From positions 1-34,001 of the forward strand of contig CAMDCV010000043.1 in NCBI GenBank assembly GCA_945890645.1: a stretch of 34,001 bases of DNA, read 5' to 3'. Below the pieces are notes generated by a model, which was not told the DNA's origin, did no database searches, and saw only the letters and a list, made by a program, of their open reading frames with translations. This DNA is from Akkermansia muciniphila. Its GTDB lineage: Bacteria; Verrucomicrobiota; Verrucomicrobiia; Verrucomicrobiales; Akkermansiaceae. Both the position numbers and the translations under genes were made by a program. Shown here one piece after another: positions 12,119 to 17,827 of the stretch (position 1 is the stretch's first letter; every line of letters starts with the position of its first letter).

Positions 12119-12181
12119 TTTGGCCAAAATTCCGACATTCTTGCTTTCCCGTTGGTGATTCTGGCGCTATCATCCCCGCTC

Positions 12182-12439
12182 ATGCCGCATGACCCACAGC
12201 CCGATCCGCGATTTGACGACTTCCTTTTTCTACAAGCGCAGAACGCGGGTCTCTTCCTCGGCCAGATTCCGCATCCCGTAACAGGAGAAAAATCCCTCAA
12301 CTTGCGCGCCGCGAAATCAGTGCTCGATTGCTTGGAAATGCTGGAAATCAAAACGCAGAACAATCTCACTAGCAACGAAAACAAATTGCTCGAAGCCGCC
12401 CTCGCCAACATCCGCAACCTCTACCAGAAACACCTCTGA
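12182..12439 (+). CDS. DUF1844 family small protein
   Basis: This is an 85-residue soluble acidic-to-neutral protein. The pattern FLFLQAQNAGLFLGQIPHPV, then NLRAAKSVLDCLEMLEIKT, NLTSNENKLLEAALANIR matches DUF1844 (PF08899), a short helical family of unknown function. The in-frame ATG at 12152 would add ten residues outside the family match, so 12182 is preferred. Its stop overlaps the kdsA start by one base (TGATG), indicating translational coupling within the operon. No function should be assumed. Confidence 0.8.
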   Translation: MPHDPQPDPRFDDFLFLQAQNAGLFLGQIPHPVTGEKSLNLRAAKSVLDCLEMLEIKTQNNLTSNENKLLEAALANIRNLYQKHL

Positions 12440-13272
12440 TGCCACTCGCACCTGTTCCTCATCCATTCACATTCGGCACGATCGAAGCCGGCAAGGGCCA
12501 ACCTTTTTTCATCCTCGGCCCCTGCGCACTGGAAACCGAGGCCTTTGCTTGGGACATGGCTCGCGCACTCAAAGCCATCACGGACCGCACCGGATCACCG
12601 TTTGTTTTTAAGGCATCGTTCGATAAAGCCAACCGCACTTCGGTCACCTCATTCCGAGGCCCCGGCCCCGCCGAAGGCTGTCGTATCCTCGGTGAAATCG
12701 CGAAAGAACTCAACGTGCCCGTCACCACCGACATCCACACCGCGGAACAAGCGGAGATCGCGGCAGAATACATCGATATTTTACAGATCCCCGCCTTTCT
12801 CTGCCGACAGACGGACTTGCTAGAAGCCGCCGCCAAAACGGGACGCGTGGTGAACGTGAAAAAAGGGCAATTCCTCGCTCCGTGGGATACTGTCAATATC
12901 GCCGATAAAATGCGCAGCTTCGGTTGCGAGAAATTTTTCCTCACGGAACGCGGCACGACTTTCGGCTACAACAATCTCGTCGCCGATATGCGTTCGCTCT
13001 ACTGGATGCGCAAGGAAGGAATTCCCGTGATTTTCGATGCCACCCACTCCGTGCAACGTCCGGGCGGCAATGGCGGCACCACTGGCGGCGATGGCGAACT
13101 TGCCCCCGTTCTAGCACGCGCAGCAATCGCCACCGGCATCGATGGACTCTTCATGGAGACACACTCGAACCCCGCCGAAGCACTCTCGGATGGACCTAAC
13201 CAAATTCCTCTTCCCGATATGGAGGCGCTGCTGATCAAACTGCAAGCCCTTCACAACGCCGCTCATGCCTGA
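12439..13272 (+). CDS. kdsA: KdsA, 3-deoxy-D-manno-octulosonate 8-phosphate synthase
   Basis: This 277-residue cytoplasmic enzyme condenses arabinose 5-phosphate with phosphoenolpyruvate to Kdo-8-phosphate, the precursor of the LPS inner core sugar. Recognisable blocks are FKASFDKANRTS (57-68), TTDIHT, FDATHSVQ and METHSNPAEALSDGPNQ. ILGPCALE carries C29 where metal-independent enzymes such as that of E. coli have asparagine, so this should be a class II, metal-dependent KdsA. It overlaps the DUF1844 gene by one base and the next gene by eight, inside an LPS-related operon. Confidence 0.95.
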   Translation: MPLAPVPHPFTFGTIEAGKGQPFFILGPCALETEAFAWDMARALKAITDRTGSPFVFKASFDKANRTSVTSFRGPGPAEGCRILGEIAKELNVPVTTDIHTAEQAEIAAEYIDILQIPAFLCRQTDLLEAAAKTGRVVNVKKGQFLAPWDTVNIADKMRSFGCEKFFLTERGTTFGYNNLVADMRSLYWMRKEGIPVIFDATHSVQRPGGNGGTTGGDGELAPVLARAAIATGIDGLFMETHSNPAEALSDGPNQIPLPDMEALLIKLQALHNAAHA

Positions 13273-14524
13273 GACCCCGTCAATGCCGCGTCTACGTCAC
13301 CGCCTGCGCCATGCGCGCATCGCTCTGCCCATCGCGCTGCTTTGCACTCCCCTCGTCCGCGCCGGCGATATCAACGCGATCTTGGAACGCATGGAACCGG
13401 GCTCGGTCATCGAGGACTTGCTCATCCCTCGCTACGATGAAAACAAAAAAGCATCGCTCGTCCTGCGCGCGGATCGCATGGTCGTGGAGTCATTGAAAAA
13501 CATGACCGCTGAGAATTTGAGCCTGCATCTCATCTCGTCCAAAAATATCCAAACGCTCAACGGCACTTGGTTTTCGATCGCAAAGTGCGACTATGATCTG
13601 ACTACTAGCATCCTACGTAGCGAGTCGGCAGTCGATGTCTTATCTTCCAGTTTCCTCCTTCACAGCAAGGGACTGATCACGAAAATCGAAAAAAATCAAA
13701 CGCACTTCACTGCCTTTCTCCTGCCACCTGTTCACGGATTTCTCAATCCTGATTCTAACGAAAAAACTGCCATGAACCGCACCCGCCAATCTCTTCTACT
13801 CGCCAGCTTGCTGACAGCGCAAGCCGTCGCACAAGGCACCGATGCCGCGCCGTCGACCGAGAAAGATGCCATTTTCGCACTGACTCCGCGCTCGGAGGAA
13901 ATTGACACGCACTTGAAGGACTTCGCCAAAAAGCATAATGTCACCATCGCTCAAATTCCTCTGCCATCGCCGACCGCACCAGTACTCAAACCCGTCGATC
14001 CGGTTGCCGCGATTCCGCAATTTTCTCCTGCCGCTGATGCCCTCGGCTTTGCTTGCAAAGGGGGCGTTTTTTACGACAGCCAAACGGCCTCTCTCACTTT
14101 GCTCAAAGACATCACCGTGCGCAATCCCGACTACGCCATGACAGTGCAAGGCGAAGTGAAAGTTTTTTTCGAACCAGAAGCAGAAAAGAAAACACCCGCA
14201 CCAGACAAAAAAGACGATGCTGTGCCTGCGACAAACTCGCTCGGCAATGTCAAACAATTGCTCGGCAGTGGCGGTGTCGCCTTTGAAGCCACTGACAAGG
14301 ATGGTGTGAAGAATTTCGCTTCGGGTGACTCCGTGGTATATGAAATGGCCACCGAGGAAATTTTCCTCAAAGGCCGCAAGCTCGTGTTTCAACAAGGCAC
14401 GCAAAGCCGTTTCGAATCCGCCTCCCCCGATGCCTGGCTACGATTCAACAAAAGAACCAAAAATTTCACCATGTCCGACGGCTGGAACGCACGACTGACC
14501 CTGCCACAAAATAAGAATCCGTGA
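13265..14524 (+). CDS. LptC/LptA-like composite LPS-transport protein with internal signal peptide
   Basis: This 419-residue ORF overlaps kdsA by 8 bases and ends 6 bases before lptB. Residues 1-33 are a signal sequence. Residues about 36-165 alternate short beta strands in a pattern like LptC (KKASLVLRADRMVVES, LNGTWFSIAKCDYD). A second signal-peptide-like segment begins at M170 (MNRTRQSLLLASLLTAQAVAQ). From about 255 to 415 the pattern resembles LptA/OstA (LTLLKDITVRNPDYAMT, GDSVVYEMATEEIFLKG). Periplasmic LPS bridging with LptB is inferred from position and weak similarity. The internal ATG at 13772 could start a separate protein, or the two genes may have fused. Similarity is too weak to assign symbols. 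Confidence 0.65.
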   Translation: MPETPSMPRLRHRLRHARIALPIALLCTPLVRAGDINAILERMEPGSVIEDLLIPRYDENKKASLVLRADRMVVESLKNMTAENLSLHLISSKNIQTLNGTWFSIAKCDYDLTTSILRSESAVDVLSSSFLLHSKGLITKIEKNQTHFTAFLLPPVHGFLNPDSNEKTAMNRTRQSLLLASLLTAQAVAQGTDAAPSTEKDAIFALTPRSEEIDTHLKDFAKKHNVTIAQIPLPSPTAPVLKPVDPVAAIPQFSPAADALGFACKGGVFYDSQTASLTLLKDITVRNPDYAMTVQGEVKVFFEPEAEKKTPAPDKKDDAVPATNSLGNVKQLLGSGGVAFEATDKDGVKNFASGDSVVYEMATEEIFLKGRKLVFQQGTQSRFESASPDAWLRFNKRTKNFTMSDGWNARLTLPQNKNP

Positions 14525-14530
14525 ACCAGC

Positions 14531-15259
14531 ATGTCTCTTCTCTCCGCCACTCACCTCAGTAAGTCGTATAGCAAGCGTAAGGTCGTCAACGACGTTTCCT
14601 TGACCGTACACTCGGGCGAAATCGTCGGGCTGCTTGGACCGAATGGCGCGGGAAAAACTACATCGTTCTACATGATCGCCGGCCTCGTTCATCCCGATGA
14701 GGGCACGGTCATTCTGGATGGCAAGGACGTCACACGCCTGCCCATGCATCGCCGTGCGCGCCTCGGCCTTGGCTATCTGCCGCAAGAGGAATCCATTTTT
14801 CGCAATCTCAGCGCCGTCGATAATCTCCTCGCGATTCTCGAAACACGCGACGATCTCAACCGCAAGCAACGCCTTGCCCAAGCCGATCATTTGTTGCAAC
14901 GATTTGGCATCGAACGATTGCGCCACTCACAGGCAATCACACTTTCGGGTGGAGAAAAACGCCGACTCGCCATCGCTCGCTCACTTTGTTCCAATCCCAA
15001 AGTGCTGATGCTCGACGAACCTTTCGCAGGCGTCGATCCACTTGCTGTGGAGGACATCCAGCGCATCGTCAAAGAGTTGCGAGATCAAGATGGCTTGGCG
15101 ATTTTAATCACCGACCACTCCGTGCGTGAAACGTTATCGATTGTCGATCGCGCCTTTCTCATTCATGACGGCCATGTGATTTTGCAAGGGACATCGCAAG
15201 AAATCGTCAACAATCCGATCGCCCGTAAAAACTACCTCGGCGAAAATTTCCGCTTCTAA
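14531..15259 (+). CDS. lptB: LptB, ATPase of the LPS export ABC transporter
   Basis: This 242-residue ABC ATPase is a close match to LptB. It has Walker A GPNGAGKTT (36-44), LGYLPQEESIFRNLS in the Q-loop region, signature LSGGEKRR, Walker B VLMLDEPFAGVDP and H-loop ITDHS. The family-typical C-terminal ending is ARKNYLGENFRF. It powers extraction of LPS from the inner membrane with LptF, LptG and LptC; LptF and LptG are not in this window. Its position directly after kdsA and the LptC/LptA-like gene matches the common Gram-negative gene order. Confidence 0.95.
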   Translation: MSLLSATHLSKSYSKRKVVNDVSLTVHSGEIVGLLGPNGAGKTTSFYMIAGLVHPDEGTVILDGKDVTRLPMHRRARLGLGYLPQEESIFRNLSAVDNLLAILETRDDLNRKQRLAQADHLLQRFGIERLRHSQAITLSGGEKRRLAIARSLCSNPKVLMLDEPFAGVDPLAVEDIQRIVKELRDQDGLAILITDHSVRETLSIVDRAFLIHDGHVILQGTSQEIVNNPIARKNYLGENFRF

Positions 15260-15268
15260 CAAATTCCC

Positions 15269-17827
15269 GTGGCCCTTCCGATCGATGACATCCGCGATGC
15301 CCTGGTCCGCGCCGCCATCCCCGGCAGTCGCATCTTGCTGAAGGCTCCTACGGGTTCGGGTAAATCCACCAGTGTGCCGCCATTTCTGACGCCTCGTGAT
15401 GCCAAAGATATCACGCTCGTGATCGAACCACGACGCATGGCCGCGCGATTGCTCGCAACGTGGGTAGCGAAGCAACGCGGCTGCGAAGTCGGCAAGGATG
15501 TGGGTTACGCTGTGCGTTACGATACCCGCTATGGAAAATCGACGCGTATCATTTATCTCACCGATGGAGTCTTTCAACGCTGGATCCAAGAGGACCCGAC
15601 GCTGACGGGCGTGGGCACTGTGATTTTCGATGAGTTTCACGAACGCCGACTCGCCGTCGATGTCGCGCTTGCTCGATGCCTCGATTTGCAAGAGGAAGCG
15701 CGCAAGGACTTACGCGTGGTCGTTATGAGTGCTACTTTGGAAACAGCAGGCCTCGCTGATTATCTCGGACCGCAGACGATCGCGTTAGAGACGGGCGGAC
15801 GCACTCATCCCGTGACCATTCACTATAGGCCTGAACGACCCGCCACTGTGCAGCGCAGCGGCGGACCACCGCGCGATACGCCGCTGTGGGAACGCATCGC
15901 AACTGTAGTGAAGGAAGCGATCGCCGCACCAGAGCCGGGGCATTTGTTAGTGTTCTGTCCTGGCACCTACGAAATCCGCAAGACTTGCGAGTTGTTAGAA
16001 AATGCTTCGTTCACCCGTGGCTGGAATGTTTATCCCCTTTACAGCGCTCTCAACCCACGCGCGCAGGAGCAAGCCATCGAGCAATCGAGCACGCCAAAAA
16101 TCATCGTCGCCACCAATGTCGCCGAAACCTCGCTCACCATCGATGGCGTGCGCACCGTCATCGACTCAGGACTCGCGCGAATTTCTTCGTTCGATGCCCG
16201 ACGCGGCATCGATACTCTCCACATTCACAAAATCTCGCGCGCCTCCGCCGAGCAGCGTGCCGGACGAGCAGGACGCACCGCGCCGGGACAATGTTTCCGA
16301 ATGTGGAGCGATAGTGGCCACGCTCACCGCGCCGCTTTTGACGCGCCCGAGGTGCATCGCGTCGATCTTGCCGAAACCATGCTACTGCTGAAAGCGGCAG
16401 GCATCGCCGATCTGCGCCACTTTCGCTGGCTCGATGCACCACTCGAAGCCTCACTGCAGCGCGCGCTCGTTTTGTTAGAGCAACTCGATGCCCTCGACGC
16501 CGAAGGGAAACTCACCGATCATGGCAAAGCGATGGCTGCTATTCCCGTGCCACCACGTTTTTCACGACTGATGATCGCGGGTCTCGAACAAGGTTGCGTG
16601 GCAGAAGCCTGCTTCATCGCCGCCGCTGTGCAGGGCGATCCAATCTTCACTGGCAAAGGCAATGTCTCGCGCAAGGACTTTCATTTCCCCGGTGCGGGCA
16701 CGGACTTCGCCGCCGAATACCAAGCGCTGCAATCAGCCCAAAATTTTAACTACGATCCGAAAGCTTGTGGTTCCGCTGGCATCTCTGGTCGGGCGGCACG
16801 CGAGCTGGCGCAAGGGTATGATCGCCTCTTGGCACTTGCGAAAAAACAACAATGGCCACTGAGCCGCATGGACTTCGTCGGCAATGTCACCGCCATCGGA
16901 CATGCCATGCTCAGCGCATTCAGCGATCAACTCGCCGTGCGCCTTAGTGCGGGCACTCTCGCCTGTCGCGTCAGTGGCAATCGACGGGGCAAACTCGATG
17001 ACCAATCCATCGCCAAACACGCTGCCGCTTTTATCGCGGTAGAAATGACCGAAGTCGAAGGCCGCGATGTCACCGTTCACCTGCGCCGCGCCACCGCCAT
17101 CGAACTCGATTGGTTAAAAGAACTTTTTCCGTTAGAAATTCATATGACCGATGGCGTTGCCTGGGATGACATGCGCAAACGTGTCGTCGCCCGCAAGGAA
17201 ATCAAATTCCGCGACCTGATTCTCGAAAGCAAAGAAATCGACCAAGGCGTGAATCTTTCTCTCGCAGCGGAAATGCTCGCCGAGCGCGTCATCAGTGGCG
17301 AGCTTACGCTCAAAAATTGGGATGACTCCGTAGAGCAATGGACCGCGCGACTCAATCTACTTTCACGACTGATGCCAGAACTGGGTATGCCCTCATGGAC
17401 TCACGAGGATCGAGTAGCTGCCATCGCTCAAATTTGCCATGGCTCCGTCGCTTACAAAGACATCAAAGAAGCCGCCGTCTGGCCCGTGTTGCGCGATTGG
17501 CTCAACTACCAACAGCATCAATTGTTAGAAAAACATGCGCCCGAGTGGTTCAAGCTCAGCGAAGATCGTCGTGCCAAAATCACCTACCCTGCCGATGGCG
17601 ATCCCTTCATCGCTGTGCGAGTGCAGCATCTTTTCGGCACCTGGGAAACACCGCGCATTTGTGTCGGTAAGCAGCCACTGCTTGTCCACATCTGTGCGCC
17701 GAATCAACGCCCATGGCAGATGACGAAAGATCTCACCAGCTTCTGGGCTAGCGGTTATACGCAAATGAAAAAAGATCTCGCCGGCCGCTACCCCAAACAC
17801 GATTGGCCCGAAAATCCTCAAAAATAA
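15269..17827 (+). CDS. hrpB: HrpB-family DEAH-type ATP-dependent helicase
   Basis: This 852-residue superfamily 2 helicase starts at GTG nine bases after lptB. Motif I is APTGSGKST (26-34), motif II is DEFH (121-124), motif III VVMSATLE, motif V ATNVAETSLTIDG and motif VI QRAGRAGRTAPG. The C-terminal HrpB domain is diagnostic: LLVHICAPNQRPWQMT followed by RYPKHDWPENP. HrpB proteins are putative RNA helicases of poorly known role. Its close coupling to lptB suggests co-transcription but not a role in LPS biology. It ends 13 bases before the convergent PVC heme gene. Confidence 0.92.
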   Translation: MALPIDDIRDALVRAAIPGSRILLKAPTGSGKSTSVPPFLTPRDAKDITLVIEPRRMAARLLATWVAKQRGCEVGKDVGYAVRYDTRYGKSTRIIYLTDGVFQRWIQEDPTLTGVGTVIFDEFHERRLAVDVALARCLDLQEEARKDLRVVVMSATLETAGLADYLGPQTIALETGGRTHPVTIHYRPERPATVQRSGGPPRDTPLWERIATVVKEAIAAPEPGHLLVFCPGTYEIRKTCELLENASFTRGWNVYPLYSALNPRAQEQAIEQSSTPKIIVATNVAETSLTIDGVRTVIDSGLARISSFDARRGIDTLHIHKISRASAEQRAGRAGRTAPGQCFRMWSDSGHAHRAAFDAPEVHRVDLAETMLLLKAAGIADLRHFRWLDAPLEASLQRALVLLEQLDALDAEGKLTDHGKAMAAIPVPPRFSRLMIAGLEQGCVAEACFIAAAVQGDPIFTGKGNVSRKDFHFPGAGTDFAAEYQALQSAQNFNYDPKACGSAGISGRAARELAQGYDRLLALAKKQQWPLSRMDFVGNVTAIGHAMLSAFSDQLAVRLSAGTLACRVSGNRRGKLDDQSIAKHAAAFIAVEMTEVEGRDVTVHLRRATAIELDWLKELFPLEIHMTDGVAWDDMRKRVVARKEIKFRDLILESKEIDQGVNLSLAAEMLAERVISGELTLKNWDDSVEQWTARLNLLSRLMPELGMPSWTHEDRVAAIAQICHGSVAYKDIKEAAVWPVLRDWLNYQQHQLLEKHAPEWFKLSEDRRAKITYPADGDPFIAVRVQHLFGTWETPRICVGKQPLLVHICAPNQRPWQMTKDLTSFWASGYTQMKKDLAGRYPKHDWPENPQK

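Follow-up and report, generated by a model that had tools for sequence, protein, structure and literature searches.

A single reading frame joining lptC and lptA, with a putative second translation start, in Akkermansia muciniphila and its relatives

In Escherichia coli, the Lpt exporter genes lie in the order lptC-lptA-lptB. The same order and the same domain families were found at a locus of Akkermansia muciniphila within a DNA stretch of 34,001 nucleotides (the window). Whereas lptC and lptA are separate genes in E. coli, here they occupied one frame in which a second signal peptide had become internal, and whereas E. coli LptC has a membrane anchor, the LptC part here began with a cleavable-looking signal peptide. 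In the accessible text of PMC4986956, the C-terminal end of E. coli LptC is thought to contact the N-terminus of LptA, giving an LptC-to-LptA polarity that is also the one a fusion would have, and the LptC membrane anchor is described as dispensable; a soluble LptC set tail-to-head on LptA would thus be sterically sensible. Clustering of lpt genes is reported, in the accessible text of PMC8871954, for Proteobacteria only among 85 genomes surveyed.

A second point of comparison is a Salmonella census of genes for N-terminal proteoforms with in-frame internal starts, in which differential localization is named (accessible text of PMC11005335). Like the genes described there, the present locus has one ORF and two putative in-frame starts, the products of which would share a C-terminus. 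Unlike them, its short product would be a whole ancestral protein whose own export signal lies inside another exported protein, and its internal start would derive from an ATGA gene overlap. No description of a natural LptC-LptA fusion was found in the searchable open-access literature, including the accessible text of PMC8407342, PMC10863985, PMC4986956, PMC8871954 and PMC10094684, and nothing close to a nested-start fusion was found in the same literature, including the accessible text of PMC7897499.

Reading frame, parts and identity of the lptCA locus

A preliminary description of the window placed one frame between kdsA and lptB, and this was borne out: positions 13265-14524 of the forward strand formed a single open frame of 419 codons with zero internal stops. 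The features of the locus, in window positions, are as follows.

12439..13272, forward strand: kdsA (KDO-8-phosphate synthase), NF003543 at E 4e-117; shares 8 nt with the fused ORF
13265..14524, forward strand: fused lptC-lptA ORF, 419 aa, with two putative translation starts and no internal stop
13265..13363, forward strand: putative N-terminal signal peptide of the LptC part (SP1), residues 1-33, cleavage site between VRA and GD placed by eye from the sequence
13373..13759, forward strand: LptC-like region, residues 37-165, from TIGR04409/PF06835 matches in relatives
13727..13813, forward strand: G-poor, weakly structured RNA patch, codons -15 to +13, its extent here borrowed from the family profile
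13772..13774, forward strand: putative internal start codon ATG (M170), the ancestral start of lptA, from family conservation, overlaps in split relatives and context score
13772..13831, forward strand: putative internal signal peptide of the LptA part (SP2), residues 170-189, cleavage site between AVA and QG placed by eye
14036..14518, forward strand: LptA-like region, residues 258-418, from TIGR03002 matches in relatives and Foldseek
14531..15259, forward strand: lptB, TIGR04406 at E 2.3e-106; begins 6 nt downstream of the fused ORF

The hydrophobic N-terminal stretch of the LptC part was also present in relatives, and M170 (ATG 13772) opened a signal-peptide-like stretch, MNRTRQSLLLASLLTAQAVA. 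A gene for a DUF1844 protein (12152-12439) lay upstream of kdsA, and a gene for a HrpB-type helicase with a GTG start (15269-17827) began 9 nt past lptB; the DUF1844 gene, kdsA-lptCA-lptB and the helicase gene possibly form one operon. The window's genome held two LptF/LptG-type genes (PF03739), and the ATPase gene lptB adjoined the fused ORF. No second match to the fused protein was found within its own genome. Searches of that genome with the PF03968 and PF06835 profiles gave zero matches and missed the fused gene itself; further divergent copies could likewise escape them.

The two parts had been described from the sequence as LptC-like and LptA-like. The window protein had no Pfam match at E <= 1, neither to PF03968 nor to PF06835, and its NCBIfam matches were weak, the N-terminal half matching TIGR04409 (LptC) at E 0.018 (14.6 bits, cut-off 38) and the whole protein matching TIGR03002 (LptA) at E 0.015 (15.2 bits, cut-off 71.7), so that it fell below both curated cut-offs. 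When 22 aligned fused proteins of the family were compared with the profiles at a threshold of E <= 0.1, matches were obtained to TIGR03002 in 17 (best 8.9e-7), to PF03968 in 14 (best 4.9e-6), to TIGR04409 in 14 (best 2.5e-7) and to PF06835 in 8 (best 2.1e-5). The LptC/LptA assignment is therefore firmer than the window protein alone would make it, because its relatives match the family profiles; the two Pfam models proposed for checking it recovered part of the relatives and missed the window protein. Comparison of the family profile with LptC chains of the PDB gave E 0.058 and weaker.

Structure prediction of the halves, also proposed in the preliminary description, succeeded for one of them. 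The whole-chain model, built from a four-sequence alignment, had a mean pLDDT of 48, and only residues 331-410 were confident (pLDDT 79-91). The top Foldseek matches were LptA 2r1a (E 1.1e-3) and LptH 4uu4 (E 1.5e-3), with prob 1.00; the LptA half is predicted to fold as LptA (a beta-jellyroll), the confident part of the model being residues 331-410 only. The LptC half modelled poorly in two attempts (pLDDT about 27-58) and gave no meaningful Foldseek match. The LptA part also carried a signal peptide and the lptB neighbourhood, as for LptA.

Fused and split loci in the family

Of 260 genomes in the family, 247 matched the family profile; 180 of these were classified, leaving 67, and one outgroup locus (L030) brought the classified loci to 181. 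Duplicate loci (23) were dropped, and L015, cut by a contig end, was left unclassified. The LptC-like and LptA-like parts shared one open frame in 139 of the 181 loci and formed two genes in 42, namely 31 in genus g3, 10 in g9, g12 and g13, and the outgroup. Outside g3 and the outgroup, 138 loci were fused and 10 split. The fused state occurred in each of the 10 genomes belonging to the window's genus, the window's own among them; at one of these loci (L008) the contig ends within the 5' part of the gene. In an order-wide search, both parts lay in one stop-free frame only in the window's family, among the matches listed. The arrangement is widespread within one Verrucomicrobiae family.

The preliminary description had named two findings that would count against a fusion. 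The first, a stop lost through sequencing or assembly error, is excluded, since the fused state is common among relatives (139/181). The second, relatives in which the parts are clearly separate genes together with halves that do not fold as Lpt domains, was found in part: two genes do occur in the 42 split loci, but fusion is widespread and has persisted, and an LptA fold is predicted for the LptA half.

Two side observations concern these loci. In family f4, one profile match (G335:C3:775281-776675) ran through LptC and LptA, which shared a frame interrupted by one TAA, an in-frame yet split arrangement outside the window's family. In L006 and L007 the LptC part opened with the lipobox-like motif APAC, and in the split loci L016 and L019 with LPSC; some LptC proteins of the family may be lipoproteins.

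An ATGA overlap of lptC and lptA lay at the junction in 23 of 42 split loci, which makes ATG 13772 the former start of lptA. The split genes share with the fused ones their position and start codon and have a similar RNA context, and differ in that lptC has its own stop, making a fusion protein impossible. The ATGA was retained at 96 of 123 fused junctions, and in the +1 frame of the fused genes the first stop was the junction TGA in 80 of 123 and an earlier one in 26. A single-base indel in the LptC tail, which is poorly conserved, could accordingly interconvert the fused and split states. On a FastTree phylogeny of KdsA and LptB (181 rows, partly incomplete, with L090 left out and L015 included without a label), the two states required 7 changes, 5 of them remaining once g3 and the outgroup were set aside. 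The placement of g3 on this tree was ambiguous, so that a single ancient fusion that later split several times is likely rather than proved.

The linker of the fused genes had undergone at least 33 length changes on the tree (122 rows), set against the 5 switches between fused and split counted outside g3 and the outgroup. Linker changes in fused genes are whole codons by definition, and the comparison therefore rests on 33 versus 5: were the frame irrelevant, frame-breaking changes would outnumber in-frame ones. For 33 of 38 changes in frame, P was 1.3e-11 on the assumption that a third of indels keep the frame and 2.1e-6 on the assumption that half do. The count is a rough one, as the 33 depend on the alignment and the FastTree topology, errors in which inflate them, and the 5 switches are counted as changes of state on the tree, which may not all be indels; it supports the view that frame continuity is kept by selection. 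These numbers bear on the idea that the loci switch freely between fused and split by single-base indels, as a neutral accident with no functional consequence. Such an idea would accommodate the five switches, the recurrence of the split state in g9, g12 and g13, and a +1 shift that in 106 of 123 junctions would stop lptC no later than the ATGA and is tolerated, judging by the split relatives. It is nevertheless unlikely given 138 fused against 10 split loci outside g3 and the outgroup, 33 linker changes against 5 switches, and an SP2 that differs between the two states (below).

Longer chains also occurred. In g16, 13 of 14 classified loci (L023, L122, L134, L136, L139, L142, L145, L146, L149, L151, L153, L156 and L175) encoded a single chain of LptC with three LptA domains after it, in open frames of about 790-925 codons, some of them incomplete. 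These LptC-(LptA)3 genes resemble the window's in having LptC in frame with LptA, and differ in having three LptA domains and neither an internal signal peptide nor the RNA signature described below. Twelve of the 13 lacked an ATG near the junction; in the remaining one, L145, the ATG was present with no signal peptide after it. Profile matches numbered exactly three in eleven of the 13 genomes, four in G243 and six in G239, so a separate LptA was not evident in most of them. The three-LptA chain is apparently a natural single-chain LPS bridge of fixed length. In g3 loci L182-L205, LptC was separate and the LptA frames of about 760-830 codons had several LptA-like matches; in L176-L181 of the same genus the LptA frames were shorter, about 290-560 codons, with lengths that are perhaps incomplete. 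Judged from these predicted architectures, the family shows several routes to a more covalent bridge.

Internal start codon, RNA context and second signal peptide

Leaving the three-LptA type aside, 126 fusions were counted, and 123 of them had a start codon at the junction (120 ATG and 3 GTG). The 126 include L116, whose LptA matches in two pieces; the junction start was placed by eye in L003, L083, L138, L140, L143 and L144; and L152 was excluded from the start count despite an ATG near its junction, this ATG lying closer to the LptC end. L021 and L118 were fusions without any junction start: the former kept a signal-like stretch with no start codon before it, and in the latter both start and motif were absent. 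In L127 the ATG was kept and the signal peptide was worn. The three GTG codons occurred in related g9 genomes (L138, L140 and L143) and lend weak support to retention of a start, since GTG is the sole Val codon one step from ATG. Residues flanking the junction were mostly variable, with the exception of Thr at codon -2 (93/123), and certain bases were constrained (with A of the ATG as +1): A+4 in 99, A+5 in 104, C-2 in 111 and C-1 in 93 of 123.

Starts in the window's genome (stretches L209-L228) had no Shine-Dalgarno sequence; the RNA surrounding them, between about -30 and +45, was G-poor and weakly structured. No Shine-Dalgarno sequence was seen at ATG 13772, and this is no counter-evidence, because motifs of that kind were no commoner at the confident starts of the genome (6% of 34) than at internal ATGs (10%). 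In a start-context model of 83 confident starts (leave-one-out, AUC 0.93), ATG 13772 outscored 96.7% of 1909 internal ATGs and, among the 83 confident starts, stood at the 39th percentile; a superseded in-sample version with 34 starts had put it at the 99.4 percentile of internal ATGs. It was the top-scoring ATG of the ORF, with M1 lower (90.5%), and was slightly outscored by one GTG, at residue 285 in the LptA part.

The RNA around the junction was compared, after thinning, in 111 of the 123 junctions, in 12 of the 13 three-LptA genes and at 444 control sites. Mean folding energy was -3.28 kcal/mol at the 111 junctions and -11.24 at the controls, and under synonymous recoding the junction was unusually open (z +0.96 versus -0.15 for the controls, p 7.5e-23). 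Synonymous avoidance of G reached to either side of the ATG, from roughly codon -15 to codon +13, which points to more than the coding of a signal peptide alone, and the raw dip in G was about as wide as that at starts of the window's genome. The 42 split lptA starts had a similar RNA context (mean dG -4.66, G 0.17). In the 12 thinned three-LptA fusions the signature was absent (-11.41 kcal/mol, z 0.07), and their G-avoidance bins scattered from -2.6 to +2.6. By these measures ATG 13772 retains the RNA signature of a start; as in the genes of proteoform pairs, a conserved internal in-frame start in a start-like context was found.

Two rival readings are addressed by these data. One is that the internal ATG and SP2 are relics of an old fusion, acting as a linker in a locus that makes the fusion only; in its favour, the frame is open and apparently maintained, and the 13 LptC-(LptA)3 genes do persist without an internal signal peptide. 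The RNA signature, however, was lost in the 12 thinned genes of that type and present in the 111 thinned fusions, where the synonymous sites are presumed saturated, and the start codon was retained in 123 of 126, which together make relics a very unlikely explanation. Alternatively, two proteins might be made, LptC by programmed +1 frameshifting or slippage onto the TGA of the ATGA and LptA from ATG 13772, with the full-length product rare. The ATGA in 96 of 123 junctions would fit such a mechanism, as would a +1 frameshift within the linker, which in 80 of 123 would stop exactly at it; yet an ATGA is expected anyway from the preferred A after ATG, no common slippery motif was apparent by eye among the junctions, and frame continuity looks selected. 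We accordingly consider frameshifting of this kind very improbable. Poly-A slippage at the window's own junction (GAAAAAAC) was considered and rejected, being absent from the close relatives L003 and L004.

The hydrophobic core of SP2 was conserved in 123 relatives (median Kyte-Doolittle value of the best 10-mer 2.05, against a background of 1.08) and was less hydrophobic when fused (2.05, n=123) than in split loci (2.40, n=42; p 1.8e-8). The difference recurred within g9 (1.88 in 13 fused versus 3.10 in 2 split) and g12 (1.76 in 7 versus 2.73 in 4); in g13 (60 fused versus 4 split) a drop was seen on the 12-residue Hessa measure only (KD p 0.21). SP1 differed little between the states (2.42 fused, 2.54 split, p 0.07), and it exceeded SP2 in 79 of 100 fused loci and also in 28 of 42 split loci. 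A tree-aware test of SP2 offered 6 independent pairs only, about 5 to 0 (p 0.0625). We read the weakening of SP2 as a probable compromise between exporting free LptA and avoiding a stop of transfer inside the fusion.

The preliminary description had also suggested that SP2 might be cleaved within the fusion or anchor it in the membrane, and neither suggestion is supported, SP2 being weaker than the signal peptides of separate LptA proteins. The same evidence bears on a polyprotein, in which only the long protein would be made and signal peptidase would cut at SP2 to free LptC and LptA. Cutting would restore the ancestral pair, and SP2 retained a cleavage-site-like motif in all 123 relatives, by a very loose pattern. 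Against this, SP2 is weaker in the fused genes, the opposite of what membrane insertion needs; a signal behind an already exported LptC domain would presumably have the wrong orientation to act as one; and retention of the start codon and of the synonymous RNA signature, including its part upstream of the ATG, is left unexplained. A polyprotein is thus very unlikely.

A dual-start reading of lptCA

The reading that we consider probable is that of one frame with two starts, M1 leading to an LptC-LptA fusion and M170 to an exported free LptA. Ribosomes initiating at M1 would meet no stop before 14522 and, there being none between the two parts, must read through; the resulting fusion would be exported via the first signal peptide, and the weakened SP2 inside it would be a mere linker. 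Independent initiation at ATG 13772, where the RNA is G-poor and unstructured and has no Shine-Dalgarno sequence, would yield LptA with its own signal peptide. The LPS bridge would start at the inner membrane with the fusion, acting together with LptB2FG, and would be lengthened by free LptA. That both proteins are produced, exported and used in this way we infer from sequence. It weighs against a dual start that the fusion is evidently not essential, as split relatives exist. A fusion with a retained signal peptide and a translational restart at ATG 13772 had been offered as alternatives; the present data favour both at once, and the choice between them falls away.

A larger claim can be built on the dual start, namely that lptCA is a working gene-within-gene giving a covalent LptC-LptA base and free LptA, with SP2 under two opposing needs (to export LptA when N-terminal, and to cross the translocon without stopping when internal), and that LptC-(LptA)3 later fixed the length of the bridge. 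This fuller picture we hold to be about evenly poised.

The number of LptA subunits per periplasmic LPS bridge is given as unknown in the accessible text of a 2023 review (PMC10094684). In natural LptC-LptA and LptC-(LptA)3 chains, the ratio of LptC to LptA would be partly or wholly fixed by the gene, through which the question of subunit number becomes testable. The nested start would in addition offer a clear-cut example of an export signal active at the N-terminus yet ignored in mid-chain, and of a gene fusion that left the downstream gene intact.
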